Shown here: positions 46,162 to 53,944 of the stretch, one piece after another
Position numbering within the stretch: the stretch's first letter is position 1
Layout of the letters: each line of letters begins with the position of its first letter
DNA from: Stieleria magnilauensis
GTDB lineage: Bacteria; Planctomycetota; Planctomycetia; Pirellulales; Pirellulaceae
Direction of reading: 5' to 3'
NCBI GenBank assembly: GCA_007753675.1
Contig: CP036432.1
Span: 9,581,381 to 9,645,380, forward strand
DNA length: 64,000 bases
Notes under the pieces: model-generated
The model's database searches: none
What the model was told of the DNA's origin: nothing
The model's input: the letters and a program-made list of their open reading frames with translations, nothing else
Made by a program: the position numbers and the translations under genes

Positions 46162-48201
46162 TCACCGGCTGGGCAGTTGAATCCCGCCGGTCGGACCGCC
46201 GGTCGGACTGCCGGGCATCGTCACAGGGGCCGGAACCGTGGACTTTAGAATCTTGATCCCGTCGCTTTCACCGGGTGTGATCAGCAATCGTTCCAGCTGG
46301 ACGATATCCAGCGGCGGCGCGAAGATATAGCCTTGGGCGAGGTCACATCCCCACTGTTGCAGCAAATTCAATTGCTGAGCCGACTCGACGCCCTGGCAGA
46401 CGATGTTTGCCATCAGGTGGTGCGCGAGTTGAACGATGGCTTGGGTGATGATCGCATGCCCATGGTCAATGGTGATCGACGCGGTGAACGTGCGATCGAT
46501 CTTCACGGTTTCGATCGGATAGTCGTGAAAGCAGGTCAGTGACGAATTGCCTTTGCCGAAATCGTCGATATGAATCCCGACGCCGCTTTGGTGCAGATCC
46601 AACATCGTTTGAAGTGACCGTTCGTTGTGACGGGTGTCACCGTTTTCCGACATTTCCAGTTTCAACGACCACTTGAACCGCGTACGATCGATGATGGCTT
46701 GCAGTCGATCAATGAAAAAGGGATCGGCGAGCTGACGTCGCGAGATATTGACGCCCAGATAGACTTGCGGTCGCTGTGCATCCTCAAACGACGCCATCAT
46801 GGCGCTGAATTCACGCATCGATCGTTCCAGCACCCATTCGCCGAAGTGGTTGATCAATCCGATCTCTTCGGCCACGGGCACAAATTCGCTCGGGGGCACG
46901 TATTCTCCATCGTCACCGCGCCAACGCGACAAGACTTCGACGCCTTGAATCTGGCAGGTTTTCAGATTCACGATCGGCTGGTATCGCAGTTCAAATTTTT
47001 CTTCCCGCAGTGCGACGCGAAGCTGTGCTTCCAACTCATGCCGGGCGACGACCGCGTCGTGCATGGTTTGGTCGAACACCGCGATTTGGCCTTTGCCGGA
47101 GTTTTTGGCCTGATACATCGCCGTGTCGGCGTTGCGCAGGGCTTCGTGGCCGTCGGCCAGGGAGTCATCGATGAAGGCGACTCCCACACTGGTGCCGACG
47201 GTGACCAGTCGATCACCGAGCGAAAACGGTTCACAGATTCGCTGGACGATACGGCGGGCGACCAACAAGGCGTCATCGCGATGGGCCAACCGTTCCAGCA
47301 GCACGACGAACTCATCGCCCCCCAAACGGATCGTTTCATCGCCGGCCGCATCGTTGCTGGTATCAACCGAATCGCTGCAGCGGGAGGCGGTATCGTGATC
47401 GCGGACGCATTCTTGAAGCCGGACGGCGACCTGATTGAGCAAGTCGTCACCGGCCTCGTGCCCGAGGCTGTCGTTGATGATTTTAAAGTTATCCAGATCG
47501 AGAAACAGCAGCGCGTCATGGGAGCGCCGTCGCGGTCCTTGATTGGCGAGAACTTGTTCCAGTTTTTCGATCAAGAACGGGCGGTTGGGAAGCGCGGTGA
47601 GCGCATCCCGATGCGCCATGTCTCTCAGTTCCGATTCCGCTTTGCGGCGCCGATTCACTTCGCTCTTGAGCAGTTCCAGTTTCTCTTCCTGGCGGATCGA
47701 GAGTCGGTATTTCTCACTGAGCGCCAACGCCAATTGGCGGGCTTCGTCATGTTCAAACGGTTTGCGAAGCAGCAACAACTTGTCGCTATAGCCGAGGCTG
47801 CGAACGATGTCGTCCCAGGTGTGATCGCTGTAGGCGGTACAGATCACGACTTGCAAATCGGAATCGATCCGCCACAGCCGACGGATGGTCGCCAATCCGT
47901 CCATTCCCCGAGGCATCCGCATGTCGACAAAGGCGACCGAAAATCGCTCTCCCGCGTCGACGGATTTCTGGACTTCATAGACGCCTTCTTCGCCACTGTA
48001 GGCGTGCGTCAGCGCAAAGACCGGTGCACTGGACGCCTGGCGTTCTTGCGGTTCGGAATCATCCAACAGGAACCGCGCTTCGAAATCATCCAATTCATGT
48101 TCACTGCGGTGATCGCACTGAAAAATTCGCGCAAACGTTTCGTGAATCTGTGATTGGTCATCAATGATCAGAACGCGGCGTTCCGTTTCAAAGTCTGTCA
48201 T
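46162..48201 (-). CDS. Response regulator with GGDEF and degenerate EAL domains
   Basis: The 679-residue protein has a receiver domain (about 8-155; Asp acceptor D93 in FVDMRMPRG, K147 in LLRKPFE), a coiled linker (about 160-195), GGDEF (about 200-375, intact GGDEF at 294-298, so probably a diguanylate cyclase, with a short insert before it and no RxxD inhibitory site), and EAL (about 390-640). In EAL, E422, N485, E516, D546/D547, K567 and Q623 are present, but the AEGVE motif reads CQGVE, putting Gln603 in place of the catalytic-base Glu. It probably makes c-di-GMP and only binds it through EAL. The upstream sensor kinase gene ends 22 bp before this start. Confidence 0.93.
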   Translation of the reverse strand: MTDFETERRVLIIDDQSQIHETFARIFQCDHRSEHELDDFEARFLLDDSEPQERQASSAPVFALTHAYSGEEGVYEVQKSVDAGERFSVAFVDMRMPRGMDGLATIRRLWRIDSDLQVVICTAYSDHTWDDIVRSLGYSDKLLLLRKPFEHDEARQLALALSEKYRLSIRQEEKLELLKSEVNRRRKAESELRDMAHRDALTALPNRPFLIEKLEQVLANQGPRRRSHDALLFLDLDNFKIINDSLGHEAGDDLLNQVAVRLQECVRDHDTASRCSDSVDTSNDAAGDETIRLGGDEFVVLLERLAHRDDALLVARRIVQRICEPFSLGDRLVTVGTSVGVAFIDDSLADGHEALRNADTAMYQAKNSGKGQIAVFDQTMHDAVVARHELEAQLRVALREEKFELRYQPIVNLKTCQIQGVEVLSRWRGDDGEYVPPSEFVPVAEEIGLINHFGEWVLERSMREFSAMMASFEDAQRPQVYLGVNISRRQLADPFFIDRLQAIIDRTRFKWSLKLEMSENGDTRHNERSLQTMLDLHQSGVGIHIDDFGKGNSSLTCFHDYPIETVKIDRTFTASITIDHGHAIITQAIVQLAHHLMANIVCQGVESAQQLNLLQQWGCDLAQGYIFAPPLDIVQLERLLITPGESDGIKILKSTVPAPVTMPGSPTGGPTGGIQLPSR

Positions 48202-48223
48202 CTATTCTCTCCGTGATTTCCCT

Positions 48224-50506
48224 TCATCGATGGCTGCCGGTCGATCCGGTGGCGGTACCGACCAGATCGGGGTCTTGGCTGGAATGCCCGGGGTCACTTT
48301 CGTCGGATGGTTTGACGACCGGCACTTCAAGAATGAAGGTAGCCCCCCGGTCGGGACCGTCGCTTTCGGCGTGAATGGCGCCACCGATTCGTTTCATTGC
48401 GATCGCGCAGAAATGCAACCCCAGTCCGCTTCCCGACTGGCGGGTCGTGAAGTGGGCATCAAAGACGCGGGCCAGGGTCGCTTCGTCCATCCCGCAACCG
48501 TTGTCGCGGAATTGAAGCTGGACGGTCGATTGATTGCGGATCAGATCAATCGTGAGCGTCGGCTGGCGGTGACGAATGTCCTGTGTGGCGTTGCCGGCGT
48601 TGGTGATGATGTTGATCAGAATTTGCAGCAACAGCGATCGATCGGTCCAGATGTGAACCACATCCTCTCGCTTGAAGTCGACCGAGACGTTGTCCTTTTC
48701 CAACCGAGCCTGACTGCACCGGACCGCCTCGGCGATCACACCGTTGACATCCAGGTGGGCCCATTTGATCGGCTGATTGGCATGCCGCCGCTGGTCACGA
48801 ATCACTTGGTGAATGTGCTGGATGTTGTCATTGAGCGTTTGCAGCAGCGCAGCCAAATCGTCTTTGTCGTCTTCCAAGGTCGCGCTCAAACGCTGCAGAT
48901 AATCCGGCGTCGCGCGTTGCAGGGCGACGTCGACGTCGTCCTGTCGCAACCGGGAGGCGAGCTTTTCGAGCGGTTCGATCCGCAGGCTTTCCACACGCCG
49001 CGTCGCGGTTTCGATCAGGCTGTTAACGTTCGTCAGCACATTCCCGACGTTGTGAATCACCGTGTCGGCCACCAGACTCATTCCCGCCGCGTGCGATGCG
49101 TCGGAAAGACGTCGCTGGGCATCGCCCAATCGCGTCCGCATCCGATCGAAGGACTGGGCCAACTGGCCGATCTCGTCGTGACCGGCGACTCGCAAAACCG
49201 GCGCGCTGGTCGCTTCGGAAATGATCCCGGTGCGTGCAATCTGTTCGGTGTGCTCACGAATCCTTTCGATTCGCCCGATGACGATCCGCTGCAACAACAG
49301 CAACAACAGCAGCAGCGAGGCACACGCCCCGCACAGTGAAAGGTAGCGTGCAAAGGCGGTGGTCCGGTTGCTGCGACTGGTGACCTCACGTGGCAAATGG
49401 ACGGTCAGTTCAGCCAACGGGTTGCCGGACGGGCTCAACAGCGGCCATTGGACACACAGCAGCGAACTGTCGGTCGGTTCCACCTCAATGGACTGTTTCA
49501 ACGTCGCATCGTGCAACAGGGGGCGAACGGAAAACAGAACGCTGGTTCGTTGCTGAAGATCCGTCATCACCGCATCACCGAACTGGCGGCCGACGACGTA
49601 GAACGACGCCGGCGCCTGCCAATCCGCCTTTCCGCGGGTGTTTCGAAGCGACGATCCGTTGGTGTGATGGTGCAGTGGAACGGCGGCGAACAAGTACAAC
49701 TGGCCGTCACTGCCGCGAGTCATGCCGCGAACCGTGTCCGCATCGTCCGAGCCGCTCGGTTCGTCTCGCTGAGCCGCAATCCGCTCCGCGATCCCCGGGA
49801 ACACGAGGTCGGCCACGTCGGGCCGTGTTGATGGCGCCTGGTCGGCCGAGTCGGGCGGAGTCGTCGCCAGCCACGTCCAACGCCCGTCGGGACGGGTGAT
49901 CGCAGCCCACTCGACGCGTTTGCCCTGCCCGAGCATCCCGAGTGGCAACGCGGTGGCAAGCTGTTCGGCAGGATCACCTCCGTTCTGTGCCCGCAGATGG
50001 AGATCGATTCGGATCGCGTCTTGGGCCGCCGTTTCGGACAGGAATTCGACTTCGGTGTTGATCGCCGAGAGGACTCGATTGGTGTCCTTGAGTGCGGCGA
50101 CGCGTTCCAGGTTGGCGAATTCCGGCGCGATGACTTTTTGCCGAACAATTTCATCGATGCTGACCACCACGCCCAACATCAGCGCGAGCGCCAAGACCAA
50201 TTTGCTGCGAAGTGACTGTGAATGCTCGCTTTCAAATTGACTCGCCGAAAGCGTCGGGATCGACTCGTCTCGATCGCCCGACGTGCCGTCTCGTTCGGGC
50301 GAATCCCGCGCTGAGCGTTTGGTTTGTTTCGTCGCCGCGGTCTCGTCCGAACCCACACCCGGTTCCCGACGCCCGTCTTTGAGACGTCCGGGGGATGCCT
50401 CACCGGTGGCTTCACGGATTGTCTCACCGGCCCCATCCGAAGCGGCACCCGTTGAGGGCTCGTCGGCTGTGGGGGGATCGTGTGAGAAAGGTGATCGCGT
50501 CGACAT
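48224..50506 (-). CDS. Transmembrane sensor histidine kinase
   Basis: The 760-residue protein has a disordered polar N-terminus (1-98), a first membrane helix (about 100-122), an extracytoplasmic sensor region of about 260 residues (CHASE-like in position, not recognised further), a second helix rich in leucine (LLLLLLLLQ, from a CAG/CAA-like run at about 49290-49320), HAMP (IERIREHTEQIARTG), a helical dimerisation region with IHNVGNVLTNVNSL as likely phospho-His, and an HATPase with N-box NIITNAGNAT, DNGCGMD and GSGLGLHFCAIAMKR. It phosphorylates, presumably, the receiver of the adjacent GGDEF/EAL protein. Confidence 0.9.
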   Translation of the reverse strand: MSTRSPFSHDPPTADEPSTGAASDGAGETIREATGEASPGRLKDGRREPGVGSDETAATKQTKRSARDSPERDGTSGDRDESIPTLSASQFESEHSQSLRSKLVLALALMLGVVVSIDEIVRQKVIAPEFANLERVAALKDTNRVLSAINTEVEFLSETAAQDAIRIDLHLRAQNGGDPAEQLATALPLGMLGQGKRVEWAAITRPDGRWTWLATTPPDSADQAPSTRPDVADLVFPGIAERIAAQRDEPSGSDDADTVRGMTRGSDGQLYLFAAVPLHHHTNGSSLRNTRGKADWQAPASFYVVGRQFGDAVMTDLQQRTSVLFSVRPLLHDATLKQSIEVEPTDSSLLCVQWPLLSPSGNPLAELTVHLPREVTSRSNRTTAFARYLSLCGACASLLLLLLLLQRIVIGRIERIREHTEQIARTGIISEATSAPVLRVAGHDEIGQLAQSFDRMRTRLGDAQRRLSDASHAAGMSLVADTVIHNVGNVLTNVNSLIETATRRVESLRIEPLEKLASRLRQDDVDVALQRATPDYLQRLSATLEDDKDDLAALLQTLNDNIQHIHQVIRDQRRHANQPIKWAHLDVNGVIAEAVRCSQARLEKDNVSVDFKREDVVHIWTDRSLLLQILINIITNAGNATQDIRHRQPTLTIDLIRNQSTVQLQFRDNGCGMDEATLARVFDAHFTTRQSGSGLGLHFCAIAMKRIGGAIHAESDGPDRGATFILEVPVVKPSDESDPGHSSQDPDLVGTATGSTGSHR

Positions 50507-50710: not shown

Positions 50711-52993
50711 TTACCGCGATTCGATGTCGAGCGATTCGAAGTAGCCTCGCGCGGCATGATGGAGATCCAATCCCTGCCATTCGGCGGCACGTTCTCTGGG
50801 GATCAGGTCGACGAACAGACGCGGAGATTGGTAGAGCAGTTCCAGCGTGGTTTGCACCAGGGCCGAGGGAGCATCCCGGCGGGTGACCAAGAAGGCGGTG
50901 GTGCCGACCGTCGCCAGCCCTCCCTCGGGGATGCCGGCGGTCGGGTAATCCGTTGGGTCGATCGTGATCGTCCGCAAGGTCGGGTGTTGCATGGAAATCG
51001 TGATGCCTTGCGGAATCGCAACCAACCGCCAGTCGCGCCGCAGCAATTGGGAAACCAGCTCACTGCCTCGCCCGACACAGATCAGTGCGACATCGGGCGC
51101 GTCGGTTGATTGCAGCCGGTCCCAGGGGATGACTTCACGCGGCGTGGCGTCGGCGGGAAGTTTTAGCGAGTCGAGAATCATGTCCGCGGCGCGGCGCGAT
51201 CCGCTGCCGATCGGACCGACCGCGATCCGTTGTCCGGCCAGAAACTGCAAGCCGAAGGAATCTTGGTGTTCCAACAGTTCGGGGGCGCGGACAAGCAGAT
51301 GCGCCGCTTCATAAAACAACGGTGCGATAACACACAGCTCGTCGCCGCTGATCGCCGAGGCCTGCATCGGTGCCAGCTGGACCTCTCGGGCGATCAACCG
51401 TTGGCGGTTGTCCAGCGAGCCACCGCTGGCGACGACACGTGTCGCCACTCCGGCGGATTGTTCCAACCGATCGGCGAGCGCCTGCGAGACGCGATTGTAG
51501 GTGCCTTGATCCAGCCCGCCGGCGAGCGTCACCGATTGCGGCATCGCTTCGATATGGTGACTCCACAGCATCGCCCCGATGACAAACAGGAATGGCGACA
51601 GGGCCAACAGCAACAGCATCGCGGCTTGGAAACGGCGGTGTCCCGGTGAGGTCCGCACGATCTTGCGACCGATCAGGGCGCCGACCAAGGGGACGCCCGC
51701 CACCCAGTGCCACATTTTCAGCAACCGCCCGCGGGGCCGCGCCAGAATCGGCCGGCCCTCCATGAACGCATCCAGATCTTCGGCGAGGTCTCGGGCTGAC
51801 TGATAGCGTTTGCGTGGTTCCTTTTCCAGACACTTGGCAACAATCGTCTCCAAATCCGTCGGCACGTTGCTGCGAAACGAACGCATCGCCGGCGGCGGCT
51901 CGTGCACGACCTGCATCAATGTCTCCACGACCGAGTCGCCGACCAGCGGTGGCCGCCCGGTGACACAGGCAAACAGAATCGCGCCGAGGGAATACACGTC
52001 ACTTTGCCGCGTGGCACGATCACTGTGCCCGCCGGCCTGCTCGGGTGCCATGTAATTGGGCGTGCCGACAGCCGCCCCGCTGCCGGTCACGCTGCTGTCG
52101 GTGCTCAGATTCTTGGCCAAGCCAAAGTCGGTGATGTGAACCCGATCCTTTTGATCGATCAGAATGTTGGCGGGCTTCATGTCGCGATGCAGCAAGTCGT
52201 TCTGATGGGCATGTTCCAATGCCCGCGCCACGTCGCGAACGTATCTGGCGGCATCTTCGATCGGCAGCTCGCCGTCGTTGATCTTGCGTTGCAGATCGGT
52301 CCCTTCGATCAACGCCATCGAAAAGAAGTGATGGCCGGCTTCGTGACCGAATTGATAGACGGGCACGATTCCCGGATGGTGCAACCGGGCGGCGGCCTGG
52401 GCTTCGGTGTAAAACCGCCGCACATCGTTCTCACAGGCCAACATGCCGCCGCGAATCATTTTCACCGCCACGGTTCGATTGAGCATCCGTTGGGTCGCCC
52501 GATACACGACGCCCATCCCACCGCGGCCGATCACCTCCAACAATTCATAGTCGCCGAGCGTGTACGGCAGCGTCGGTCCCGGATCCCCTTTGGGGCGATG
52601 TGCCTCGGGAAGGGTCGCGGCGGGGTCGTCGCCGGAATCGTCGGGGCCGGCGACCATCACATCGACGGTGTCCGCGGCGGCGGCGGCTTGAGCGACTTCG
52701 CCCGAGTCCGGGACGCTCGCCCCGGTGAATCGATGAATCGCGTCGGCCGCGTCCATCAAACTCTTCAGTTCCTCGGCCATCTCGGGAAACTGTGCCAAGA
52801 ACTCTTCTCGCGAACCGACGGATCCTTCATCGCACGAACGCAGATAGGCTGCGAATGCTTCGTCGATCGGATCGTCGGCTTCGGACGGAACGGGCATGGA
52901 AACGTCAGCGGAAGAATCGGAGGAAGGGGTGGCGTCTTCGCATCGACCACCATCAGGGGCCGCAACGGAGGTGGCATGGGGCGCGCGCCCCAT
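50711..52993 (-). CDS. Receptor Ser/Thr kinase fused to a TAXI-type solute-receptor domain
   Basis: The 760-residue protein has an N-terminal helical segment common in planctomycetal kinases (about 42-88: DEAFAAYLRSCDEG), a Hanks kinase (about 149-410: GRGGMG 156-161, K178, HRDMKPAN 269-276, DFG 289-291), one membrane segment (about 458-477) and an extracytoplasmic domain (about 488-750) that resembles TAXI/NMT1-like periplasmic receptors: GGLDQGTYNRVSQALADRL, VVASGGSLDNRQRLI, IAPLFYEAAHLLVRAPELL, LAGQRIAVGPIGSGSRRAAD. It would sense a small ligand outside and signal by phosphorylation inside, likely to the ECF factor encoded upstream. Met33 at 52897 is an alternative start. Confidence 0.88.
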   Translation of the reverse strand: MGRAPHATSVAAPDGGRCEDATPSSDSSADVSMPVPSEADDPIDEAFAAYLRSCDEGSVGSREEFLAQFPEMAEELKSLMDAADAIHRFTGASVPDSGEVAQAAAAADTVDVMVAGPDDSGDDPAATLPEAHRPKGDPGPTLPYTLGDYELLEVIGRGGMGVVYRATQRMLNRTVAVKMIRGGMLACENDVRRFYTEAQAAARLHHPGIVPVYQFGHEAGHHFFSMALIEGTDLQRKINDGELPIEDAARYVRDVARALEHAHQNDLLHRDMKPANILIDQKDRVHITDFGLAKNLSTDSSVTGSGAAVGTPNYMAPEQAGGHSDRATRQSDVYSLGAILFACVTGRPPLVGDSVVETLMQVVHEPPPAMRSFRSNVPTDLETIVAKCLEKEPRKRYQSARDLAEDLDAFMEGRPILARPRGRLLKMWHWVAGVPLVGALIGRKIVRTSPGHRRFQAAMLLLLALSPFLFVIGAMLWSHHIEAMPQSVTLAGGLDQGTYNRVSQALADRLEQSAGVATRVVASGGSLDNRQRLIAREVQLAPMQASAISGDELCVIAPLFYEAAHLLVRAPELLEHQDSFGLQFLAGQRIAVGPIGSGSRRAADMILDSLKLPADATPREVIPWDRLQSTDAPDVALICVGRGSELVSQLLRRDWRLVAIPQGITISMQHPTLRTITIDPTDYPTAGIPEGGLATVGTTAFLVTRRDAPSALVQTTLELLYQSPRLFVDLIPRERAAEWQGLDLHHAARGYFESLDIESR

Positions 52994-53158: not shown

Positions 53159-53800
53159 CTACATGTACGGATTGTTCTTCGGATCAATGATCGTTCGCAA
53201 CTTTTGCAGACCTCGTTTTAACAAGCCGGCGACGGCGGTGTCGGATTTTCCCATCCGCTCGACGATCATTGCCAGCGGTAAACCTTCCATGTAACGCAAT
53301 CGGATCGCTTCGGCCTGCGTTTCGGGCAATTGGTGCAAGGCTTCCAGTAAGGCGATGGCGGTTTCTTCTTTGATCACCACACCGGATGGGCTGGTGGTGC
53401 TGCCTGGCAACTGGGCGATCCAGGGTGCACCGCCGGAATCGTTTCCCGCCTTCGCATCGGCATTGACTTCACGTCGAATACTCCGCTTTTGCGTCATCAC
53501 GTGACGCGTCACGGCGGTGGCGACGTTGTTTTTCAGCATTCCGCGCAACCACGCGGCGAACTCTCCCGGTGAATCCCCGCGAAACGAATGCAGGTCGCGT
53601 TTTGCTTCCAAAAAAGTGATTTGAACGATGTCTCCCGGATCGACCCGGCGGCGAAGCTGTTCGGACAAATTGCGATGCGCCAACATCAACAAGTACCCGC
53701 GATACTGTTCCAGCAATTGCCCCAACGCCGAATTGTCGCCGGCTTTGGACGCGACCACTAATTCGGTCGTCGACATGTCTCCATCAGTTGCGGTCATCAA
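53159..53800 (-). CDS. ECF-type RNA polymerase sigma factor
   Basis: A 213-residue protein with region 2 (about 30-95: LEQYRGYLLMLAHRNLSEQLRRRVDPGDIVQITFLEAKRDLHSF, then FAAWLRGMLKNNVATAVTRH) and region 4 (about 150-205: ALLEALHQLPETQAEAIRLRYMEGLPLAMIVERMGKSDTAVAGLLKRGLQKLR). The pattern RRVDPGDIVQ is typical of planctomycetal ECF groups linked to Ser/Thr kinases. Its partner is the TAXI-domain kinase, 165 bp downstream on the same strand. A start at Met9 (53776) is also possible. Confidence 0.9.
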   Translation of the reverse strand: MMTATDGDMSTTELVVASKAGDNSALGQLLEQYRGYLLMLAHRNLSEQLRRRVDPGDIVQITFLEAKRDLHSFRGDSPGEFAAWLRGMLKNNVATAVTRHVMTQKRSIRREVNADAKAGNDSGGAPWIAQLPGSTTSPSGVVIKEETAIALLEALHQLPETQAEAIRLRYMEGLPLAMIVERMGKSDTAVAGLLKRGLQKLRTIIDPKNNPYM

Positions 53801-53944
53801 TCAAATTCTGGACAATGTTGGTGCTCGGCGGATGCGAGACAGTTTATCTCATGAATGGTGGTCCCAAAGCCAACGGAGCCTGTTCGTCGCCGATTTTTCG
53901 CCTCTTCACCGTCCTTCCCTCCCCAACTTCGGCAGACTTCAACG

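Follow-up and report, generated by a model that had tools for sequence, protein, structure and literature searches.

Within the genome of Stieleria magnilauensis, a planctomycete of the order Pirellulales whose sequence is a single contig of 10.77 Mb, we analyzed a stretch of 64,000 nucleotides (CP036432.1, positions 9,581,381 to 9,645,380 of the forward strand; hereafter the window) that carries a gene for a receptor Ser/Thr kinase. The predicted product consists of a Hanks kinase domain, one membrane helix and a C-terminal outer domain resembling TAXI-type solute-binding proteins, and the gene lies between that of an extracytoplasmic function (ECF) sigma factor and two further regulatory genes (Table 1). 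A preliminary description of this DNA had recognized a complete Hanks kinase, one helix and a TAXI receptor, and Pfam profiles, hydropathy and the catalytic residues bear out this layout; its estimate of 260 outer residues was about right as well.

Table 1. Features of the receptor kinase locus, in window coordinates. For pocket residues, conservation is given first in the 37-row and then in the 31-row set described in the text.
Feature	Coordinates	Strand	Basis or remarks
Receptor Ser/Thr kinase with TAXI outer domain, 760 aa	50711..52993	-	ATG start; Pkinase and NMT1_3; 36 like relatives
Hanks kinase domain, residues 149-398	51800..52549	-	Pfam; Lys178, HRD 269-271, DFG 289-291
Single membrane helix, residues ~458-479	51557..51622	-	Hydropathy and positive-inside charge
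TAXI (NMT1_3) ligand-binding domain (predicted), residues 485-757	50723..51541	-	Profiles, model, Foldseek
Tyr499, equivalent to VcGluP Tyr45 (amino-group contact, key determinant)	51497..51499	-	Y 35/37; 31/31
Ser526, equivalent to VcGluP Ser75 (alpha-carboxylate contact)	51416..51418	-	S 36/37; S 25, T 5, A 1 of 31
Gln544, equivalent to VcGluP Gln93 (amino-group contact, key determinant)	51362..51364	-	Q 36/37; 31/31
Glu562, equivalent to VcGluP Glu125 (amino-group contact)	51308..51310	-	E 33, D 4 of 37; E 31/31 (biased, see text)
Gly598, equivalent to VcGluP Gly156 (main-chain contact, alpha-carboxylate)	51200..51202	-	G 35/37; 31/31
ECF-type sigma factor, TIGR02984 (Sig-70_plancto1)	53159..53800	-	165 bp upstream of receptor kinase; NCBIfam
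HAMP-HATPase histidine kinase, no HisKA model matched	48224..50506	-	204 bp downstream of receptor kinase; Pfam
Response regulator (receiver)-GGDEF-EAL protein	46162..48201	-	22 bp downstream of histidine kinase; Pfam

The receptor kinase and its outer domain

The kinase domain is matched by Pkinase with an E-value of 4.3e-52, and the lysine, HRD and DFG residues listed in Table 1 are invariant in all 37 kinase-TAXI proteins compared. Hydropathy analysis indicated one helix only, with its top window at residues 458-476, and the preceding residues 421-457 contain eight Lys or Arg and no Asp or Glu, which fits an orientation with the kinase inside and the TAXI domain outside. With intact catalytic residues, one helix in the window protein and an outer domain, the protein has the makeup of a Hanks receptor kinase, and with receptor domain and kinase in one chain it falls among the solute-receptor-fused Ser/Thr kinases. 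The start codon is uncertain, the frame staying open to 815 aa. The closest named relatives are from Rhodopirellula sp. SM50 and Stieleria sedimenti.

The outer domain was matched by NMT1_3 (PF16868) at residues 501-751 with an E-value of 1.6e-10 and a score of 41.6 bits, above the cut-off of 27, and by TRAP_TAXI (TIGR02122, NCBIfam) over residues 461-752 with an E-value of 7e-14 and a score of 51 bits, below the cut-off of 84, indicating a diverged TAXI domain. The limits of 501-751 are those of Pfam, and the limits of 485-757 used in Table 1 were set by family conservation. When a profile of 36 kinase-fused outer domains was compared with the sequences of solved TAXI-type proteins, seven matches were obtained at E-values of 3e-19 to 4e-35, followed by the next at 0.039; at the level of sequence, the resemblance to TAXI proteins is far from chance.

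The preliminary description had proposed structure prediction of the outer domain followed by a structural search, and the modelled fold is that of the two-lobed TAXI binding proteins. AlphaFold2 modelled residues 482-760 from 31 alignment rows with a predicted local distance difference test (pLDDT) score of 91.8 and a predicted template modelling (pTM) score of 0.89. In a Foldseek search of the PDB with this model, ranks 1-7 were taken by 1us4, two chains of 9ibp, 8u79, 9ibo, 8s4j and 4ddd, with template modelling (TM) scores of 0.75-0.82 and E-values of 3e-21 to 1.5e-17, while the E-value at rank 8 falls to 2e-10. These top entries are also the best sequence-profile matches. By their titles, 1us4, 8u79 and 9ibo have glutamate bound, and 8s4j is a glutamate-specific TAXI protein; 9ibp and 4ddd are titled otherwise, and we read them as TAXI proteins from the name 'immunogenic protein' and the profile matches.

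Two models of TRAP membrane components (PF06808 and TIGR02123) found no match in the whole 10.77 Mb genome, so the absence of a TRAP membrane gene from the window, as first described, extends to the genome for these models. As a control, PF06808 was matched in 7 of 14 control genomes and TIGR02123 in 6 of 14. With no cognate TRAP membrane match in the genome, the domain does not qualify as the receptor of a TRAP transporter. A GltS-like gene, considered as a partner after the TAXI-GltS arrangement, lies at C1:9076434-9077543, about 0.5 Mb away and not near the kinase locus.

The predicted ligand pocket

The pocket is compared here with that of the glutamate-bound receptor VcGluP (PMC11574862). 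In VcGluP, Tyr45, Gln93, Glu125 and the Met201 main chain hold glutamate by its amino group, and Ser75 and Gly156 hold it by the alpha-carboxylate. The side-chain carboxylate is held by the main chain and by water bound to Ser40, Tyr46, His123, Tyr200 and others. Substitution by alanine reduced affinity 213-fold at Tyr45 and 990-fold at Gln93.

Equivalent positions were derived from family-profile alignments together with a joint alignment, and conservation was counted in two sets: 37 rows, comprising 36 kinase-TAXI proteins found with the Pfam profile plus the window protein, and 31 rows, comprising the window protein and 30 of 31 named loci, one (L116) being dropped for its truncated sequence. 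The preliminary description had made its case depend on conservation of the pocket residues in relatives, and most of the contact residues are indeed conserved by both counts (Table 1). Of the six VcGluP positions that were mutated, four (Tyr45, Ser75, Gln93 and Glu125) fall within the 27 best-conserved columns out of 279 in the outer domain of the 37 rows, for which the chance probability is about 0.0009 if shared descent is ignored. In the 31-row set, three of the six are invariant (chance 0.007). Tyr200 and Met201 are not conserved in the kinase-TAXI family.

As a control, the 22 strongest stand-alone TAXI proteins of the order were aligned at the positions of Tyr45, Gln93 and Glu125, where they carry Phe (21, with one gap), Asn (22) and Asn (22), respectively. 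The Tyr/Gln/Glu grip on the amino group is thus not general to the TAXI proteins of these genomes. For these stand-alone proteins themselves (L003-L024), the Phe/Asn/Asn pocket points to a ligand different from the one bound by VcGluP.

Distribution and genomic neighborhood

NMT1_3 is present in 90 of the 296 Pirellulales genomes. From these, 40 places were taken, mostly picked for long reading frames, and the kinase-TAXI architecture was found in 36 of them, giving 37 open reading frames (ORFs) with that of the window. A search with two peptide patterns in one genome each of 84,980 species, which is the search that covered genomes outside the phylum, returned 31 loci, all of them kinase-TAXI and all planctomycete by name. 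In 392 genomes of the phylum, the kinase tail and TAXI domain were covered together only in the window's genome and one other (G053) among the matches listed, and no kinase was found in the frame of the TAXI domain in 18 TAXI stretches with long frames that came from outside the order; with only five candidates scored in each genome, this search does not firmly exclude the fusion outside the order.

Some other arrangements of TAXI genes were observed along the way. Two of those 18 stretches carry a separate kinase-like ORF (L077:866-2458 and L085:5073-6001) on the strand opposite to the neighboring TAXI gene, and, likewise outside the order, six loci (L075, L081, L082, L084, L088 and L089) have at least two TAXI matches in one frame of up to ~1300 aa. 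At L073:2708-4918, about 300 residues lacking a Pfam match and a membrane helix precede the TAXI domain, possibly another type of receptor.

The gene upstream of the receptor kinase encodes an ECF sigma factor, in agreement with the preliminary description, its match to TIGR02984 (E-value 1e-65, 220.9 bits) exceeding the cut-off of 183.75. We compared the neighborhood across a tree of 62 kinase-TAXI rows, including the window, with sigma similarity determined by phmmer. A similar sigma gene lies directly upstream in 40 of the 62 rows; the remaining 22 comprise a 19-row Pirellula-type clade together with L043, L058 and L109. The question of whether an ECF gene always accompanies this architecture, raised in the preliminary description, is therefore answered in the negative, and invariable adjacency is ruled out. 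On the tree, the sigma label changes three times, compared to 18.3 in shuffles, indicating that the linkage is stably inherited; the tree is midpoint-rooted with some long branches and does not distinguish gain from loss of the linkage. In L103-L107, the sigma and kinase ORFs, taken from their longest starts, overlap by 15-18 bp.

Pairing of this kind is generic in the S. magnilauensis genome, given that a kinase match is present within 2 kb for 13 of the 17 TIGR02984 matches scoring 100 bits or more (67 matches were obtained in total), compared to 4.7% of random places. In region 2.2, the sigma factor carries the motif DPxD, as do 20 of 20 close rows, and Asp/Glu-x-x-Asp is present in the 8 more distant rows shown; one of the 20 stretches taken for the sigma comparison (L140) had no alignable sigma and was left out of the counts. 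The acidic residues of region 2.2 are not replaced by a Thr-bearing motif, and in this respect the protein differs from ECF43-type sigma factors. We did not adopt an ECF43-like activation, in which phosphate supplies a missing charge, since DPxD is kept, and phosphorylation of the sigma factor need not work in this way. Separately, the block GATAAACTGT at ~53839-53848 precedes the sigma ORF by about 40 bp; it is unchanged in 6 of the 8 close relatives that were aligned and is a possible promoter element.

Downstream of the receptor kinase, relatives of both the histidine kinase and the GGDEF-EAL protein are present in at least 18 of the 40 sigma-linked rows, and a GGDEF-EAL relative alone in 2 more, for a GGDEF-EAL total of at least 20 of 40; these are lower bounds, two loci (L057 and L035) ending early and one (L037) having been missed. 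In the 62-row tree, both genes are restricted to part of the sigma-bearing clade. With downstream regulator genes in half of the sigma-linked rows, the unit often comprises three or four genes, and the pair at 46162-50506 is a possible cyclic di-GMP arm of the locus. In 9 of the 22 sigma-less rows, the kinase-TAXI gene is instead followed within 28 bp, or overlapped, by a gene of another family, F3 (L111:6819-9479, L112, L114, L118-L121, L036 and L038), whose products are ~860-930 aa. In the two members read (L111 and L118), hydrophobic stretches are found near both ends and no Pfam match was obtained. An AlphaFold2 model of F3 had a mean pLDDT of 59.9, too low for use.

Proposed function and relation to known systems

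Based on the domain order, the modelled TAXI fold, the retained residues that hold the amino and carboxylate groups, and the conserved neighborhood, we propose, at roughly even odds (a probability of about 0.5), that the protein is a single-pass receptor kinase in which the TAXI domain, on the outside, acts as a tethered venus flytrap that senses a small alpha-amino acid, and that it signals via the neighboring sigma factor. As judged from fold and pocket, ligand binding would close the outer domain. The membrane helix would pass this change on and alter the pairing or activity of the cytoplasmic kinase, which would then phosphorylate the TIGR02984 sigma factor or a sigma partner, so that an outside amino acid would reset transcription. 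For the steps from kinase to sigma factor, the proposal draws on gene linkage (40 of 62 rows) and on precedent, PknS having been reported to phosphorylate EcfK directly (in the available part of PMC13147305) and PknT-EcfP (ECF43) being a described kinase-sigma pair (in that of PMC8999054). Where histidine kinase and GGDEF-EAL genes are linked to the locus, in part of the sigma-bearing clade, their products probably give it control over cyclic di-GMP as well. The preliminary description had envisaged an entire route from ligand to promoter in two genes; this has partial support, given that a similar sigma gene adjoins 40 of the 62 rows and not all of them, that such pairing is generic in the genome, and that a third or fourth gene is frequently present.

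A number of observations weigh against this proposal. The Glu562 count in the 31-row set is partly built in, one of the search patterns having held this residue. Seventeen kinase-less TAXI proteins from inside and outside the order mostly keep the grip (Tyr in 13, Gln in 14, Glu in 13), and in the VcGluP study, as far as its available text goes, only Tyr45 and Gln93 were critical among the mutants, while 78% of all TAXI proteins share Tyr45 and 54% share Gln93 (PMC11574862), indicating that the grip alone is not special to the kinase-TAXI family. The side-chain end of the pocket is changed relative to VcGluP, with Leu494 for Ser40, Asn500 for Tyr46, Phe560 for His123 and Ile638 for Tyr200; the position of Phe560 is Phe in 30 of 31 rows. 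One kinase-TAXI relative, L069 (L069:3426-5423), has lost most pocket residues and may have lost ligand binding. On the side of the output, the sigma neighbor is absent in 22 of 62 rows, the sigma factor retains two of the DAED motif's three acidic residues, and a Ser-Pro-Ser in the sigma linker, considered as a phosphosite, occurs in 9 of 13 kinase-linked compared to 1 of 4 unlinked TIGR02984 proteins of the genome, numbers too small to be decisive.

Given that the residues for the amino and carboxylate end are kept and the side-chain end is changed, the predicted ligand is likely an alpha-amino acid, with glutamate not the only candidate, and it may differ between kinase-TAXI relatives. Glutamate itself was not adopted as the ligand because the side-chain end differs from that of VcGluP. 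This same difference, together with the fact that only a handful of TAXI substrates are known (according to the available part of PMC12344293), would also be consistent with sensing of a carboxylate that is not an amino acid, such as a dicarboxylate or keto acid. We consider this unlikely, as nearly all rows retain the three side chains with which VcGluP contacts the amino group, and the strongest stand-alone TAXI proteins of the order lack them. Loss of small-ligand binding altogether, leaving the domain with a protein-contact or structural role, would accord with the TIGR02122 score below cut-off and with the eroded pocket of L069; the presence of four of six VcGluP-mutated positions among the most conserved columns makes it quite improbable.

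It may also be that an amino acid is sensed and the main output is the histidine kinase and GGDEF-EAL pair or other targets, with the sigma gene linked for co-expression only. The occurrence of a GGDEF-EAL gene, mostly with a histidine kinase gene, in half of the sigma-linked rows speaks for this, as do the sigma-less rows, nine of which have the unrelated F3 directly downstream. Yet the sigma gene is the more widely conserved neighbor, and the two-component genes are confined to part of the sigma-bearing clade, so we regard this explanation, too, as rather doubtful.

Several features of the proposed sensor have counterparts in known systems. VcGluP (VC0430) and TtGluBP (1us4/1us5) share its fold and the residues holding the amino and carboxylate groups, but these are free receptors, VcGluP being that of a TRAP transporter, whereas the TAXI domain of the receptor kinase is a C-terminal outer domain with another side-chain pocket in a genome with no TRAP membrane match. 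Outside TRAP transporters, TAXI domains are also found in TAXI-GltS, in some bacteria fused to another module, which, according to the part of PMC12344293 at hand, serves transport and not signalling. Other receptors are known to use solute-receptor families as their sensor domains (PMC9602780, partial text), and Ser/Thr kinases fused to such domains were described in 2005, one from Streptomyces coelicolor bearing a Glu/Gln solute-binding domain and one from Nostoc bearing an ANF-receptor domain (PMC1262709); their receptors are of ABC-transporter or ANF kind rather than TAXI, and the accessible portion of that report mentions no sigma neighbor. In the GlnH-GlnX-PknG system of Actinobacteria, an amino-acid-binding solute receptor is likewise proposed to control a Ser/Thr kinase, but, in the available text of PMC6069109, through three separate proteins and with the metabolic regulator GarA as target, whereas in Stieleria receptor, helix and kinase form one chain beside a sigma gene.

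Adjoining genes for a Hanks kinase and an ECF sigma factor are likewise familiar from PknS-EcfK, PknT-EcfP and ECF groups 59, 61, 62 and 217, and groups with kinase neighbors and planctomycete examples have already been described (PMC8999054, as far as its available text goes). In contrast with EcfP (ECF43), the Stieleria sigma factor keeps acidic residues of region 2.2, and the likeness shown is in gene linkage. Among the matches listed from the open-licence literature, we recognized no kinase-TAXI fusion, and neither 'TAXI' nor 'NMT1' occurs in a survey of planctomycete kinases (PMC11032199). What is new is therefore the TAXI sensor on a kinase, its amino-acid-type pocket and its genomic setting, kinases with other solute receptors being already known.

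In a broader and more tentative interpretation, which we would sooner bet against than for, the Pirellulales proteins may constitute a family of dedicated receptors for outside amino acids, in which a Hanks kinase took over a transport receptor, the grip on the amino and carboxylate groups was kept and the side-chain pocket varied by relative, such that different amino acids would be read out via TIGR02984-like sigma factors and, in one clade, cyclic di-GMP. Solved, ligand-bound structures exist for relatives of the outer domain, and its amino-acid grip is conserved, so that the class of ligand is predictable and could be tested with one purified domain. In a genome where the TRAP membrane models find no match, a receptor of the transport type appears here built into a kinase as its sensor, and, if the proposal is true, the locus would represent a planctomycete sigma-kinase pair with a predictable class of ligand.

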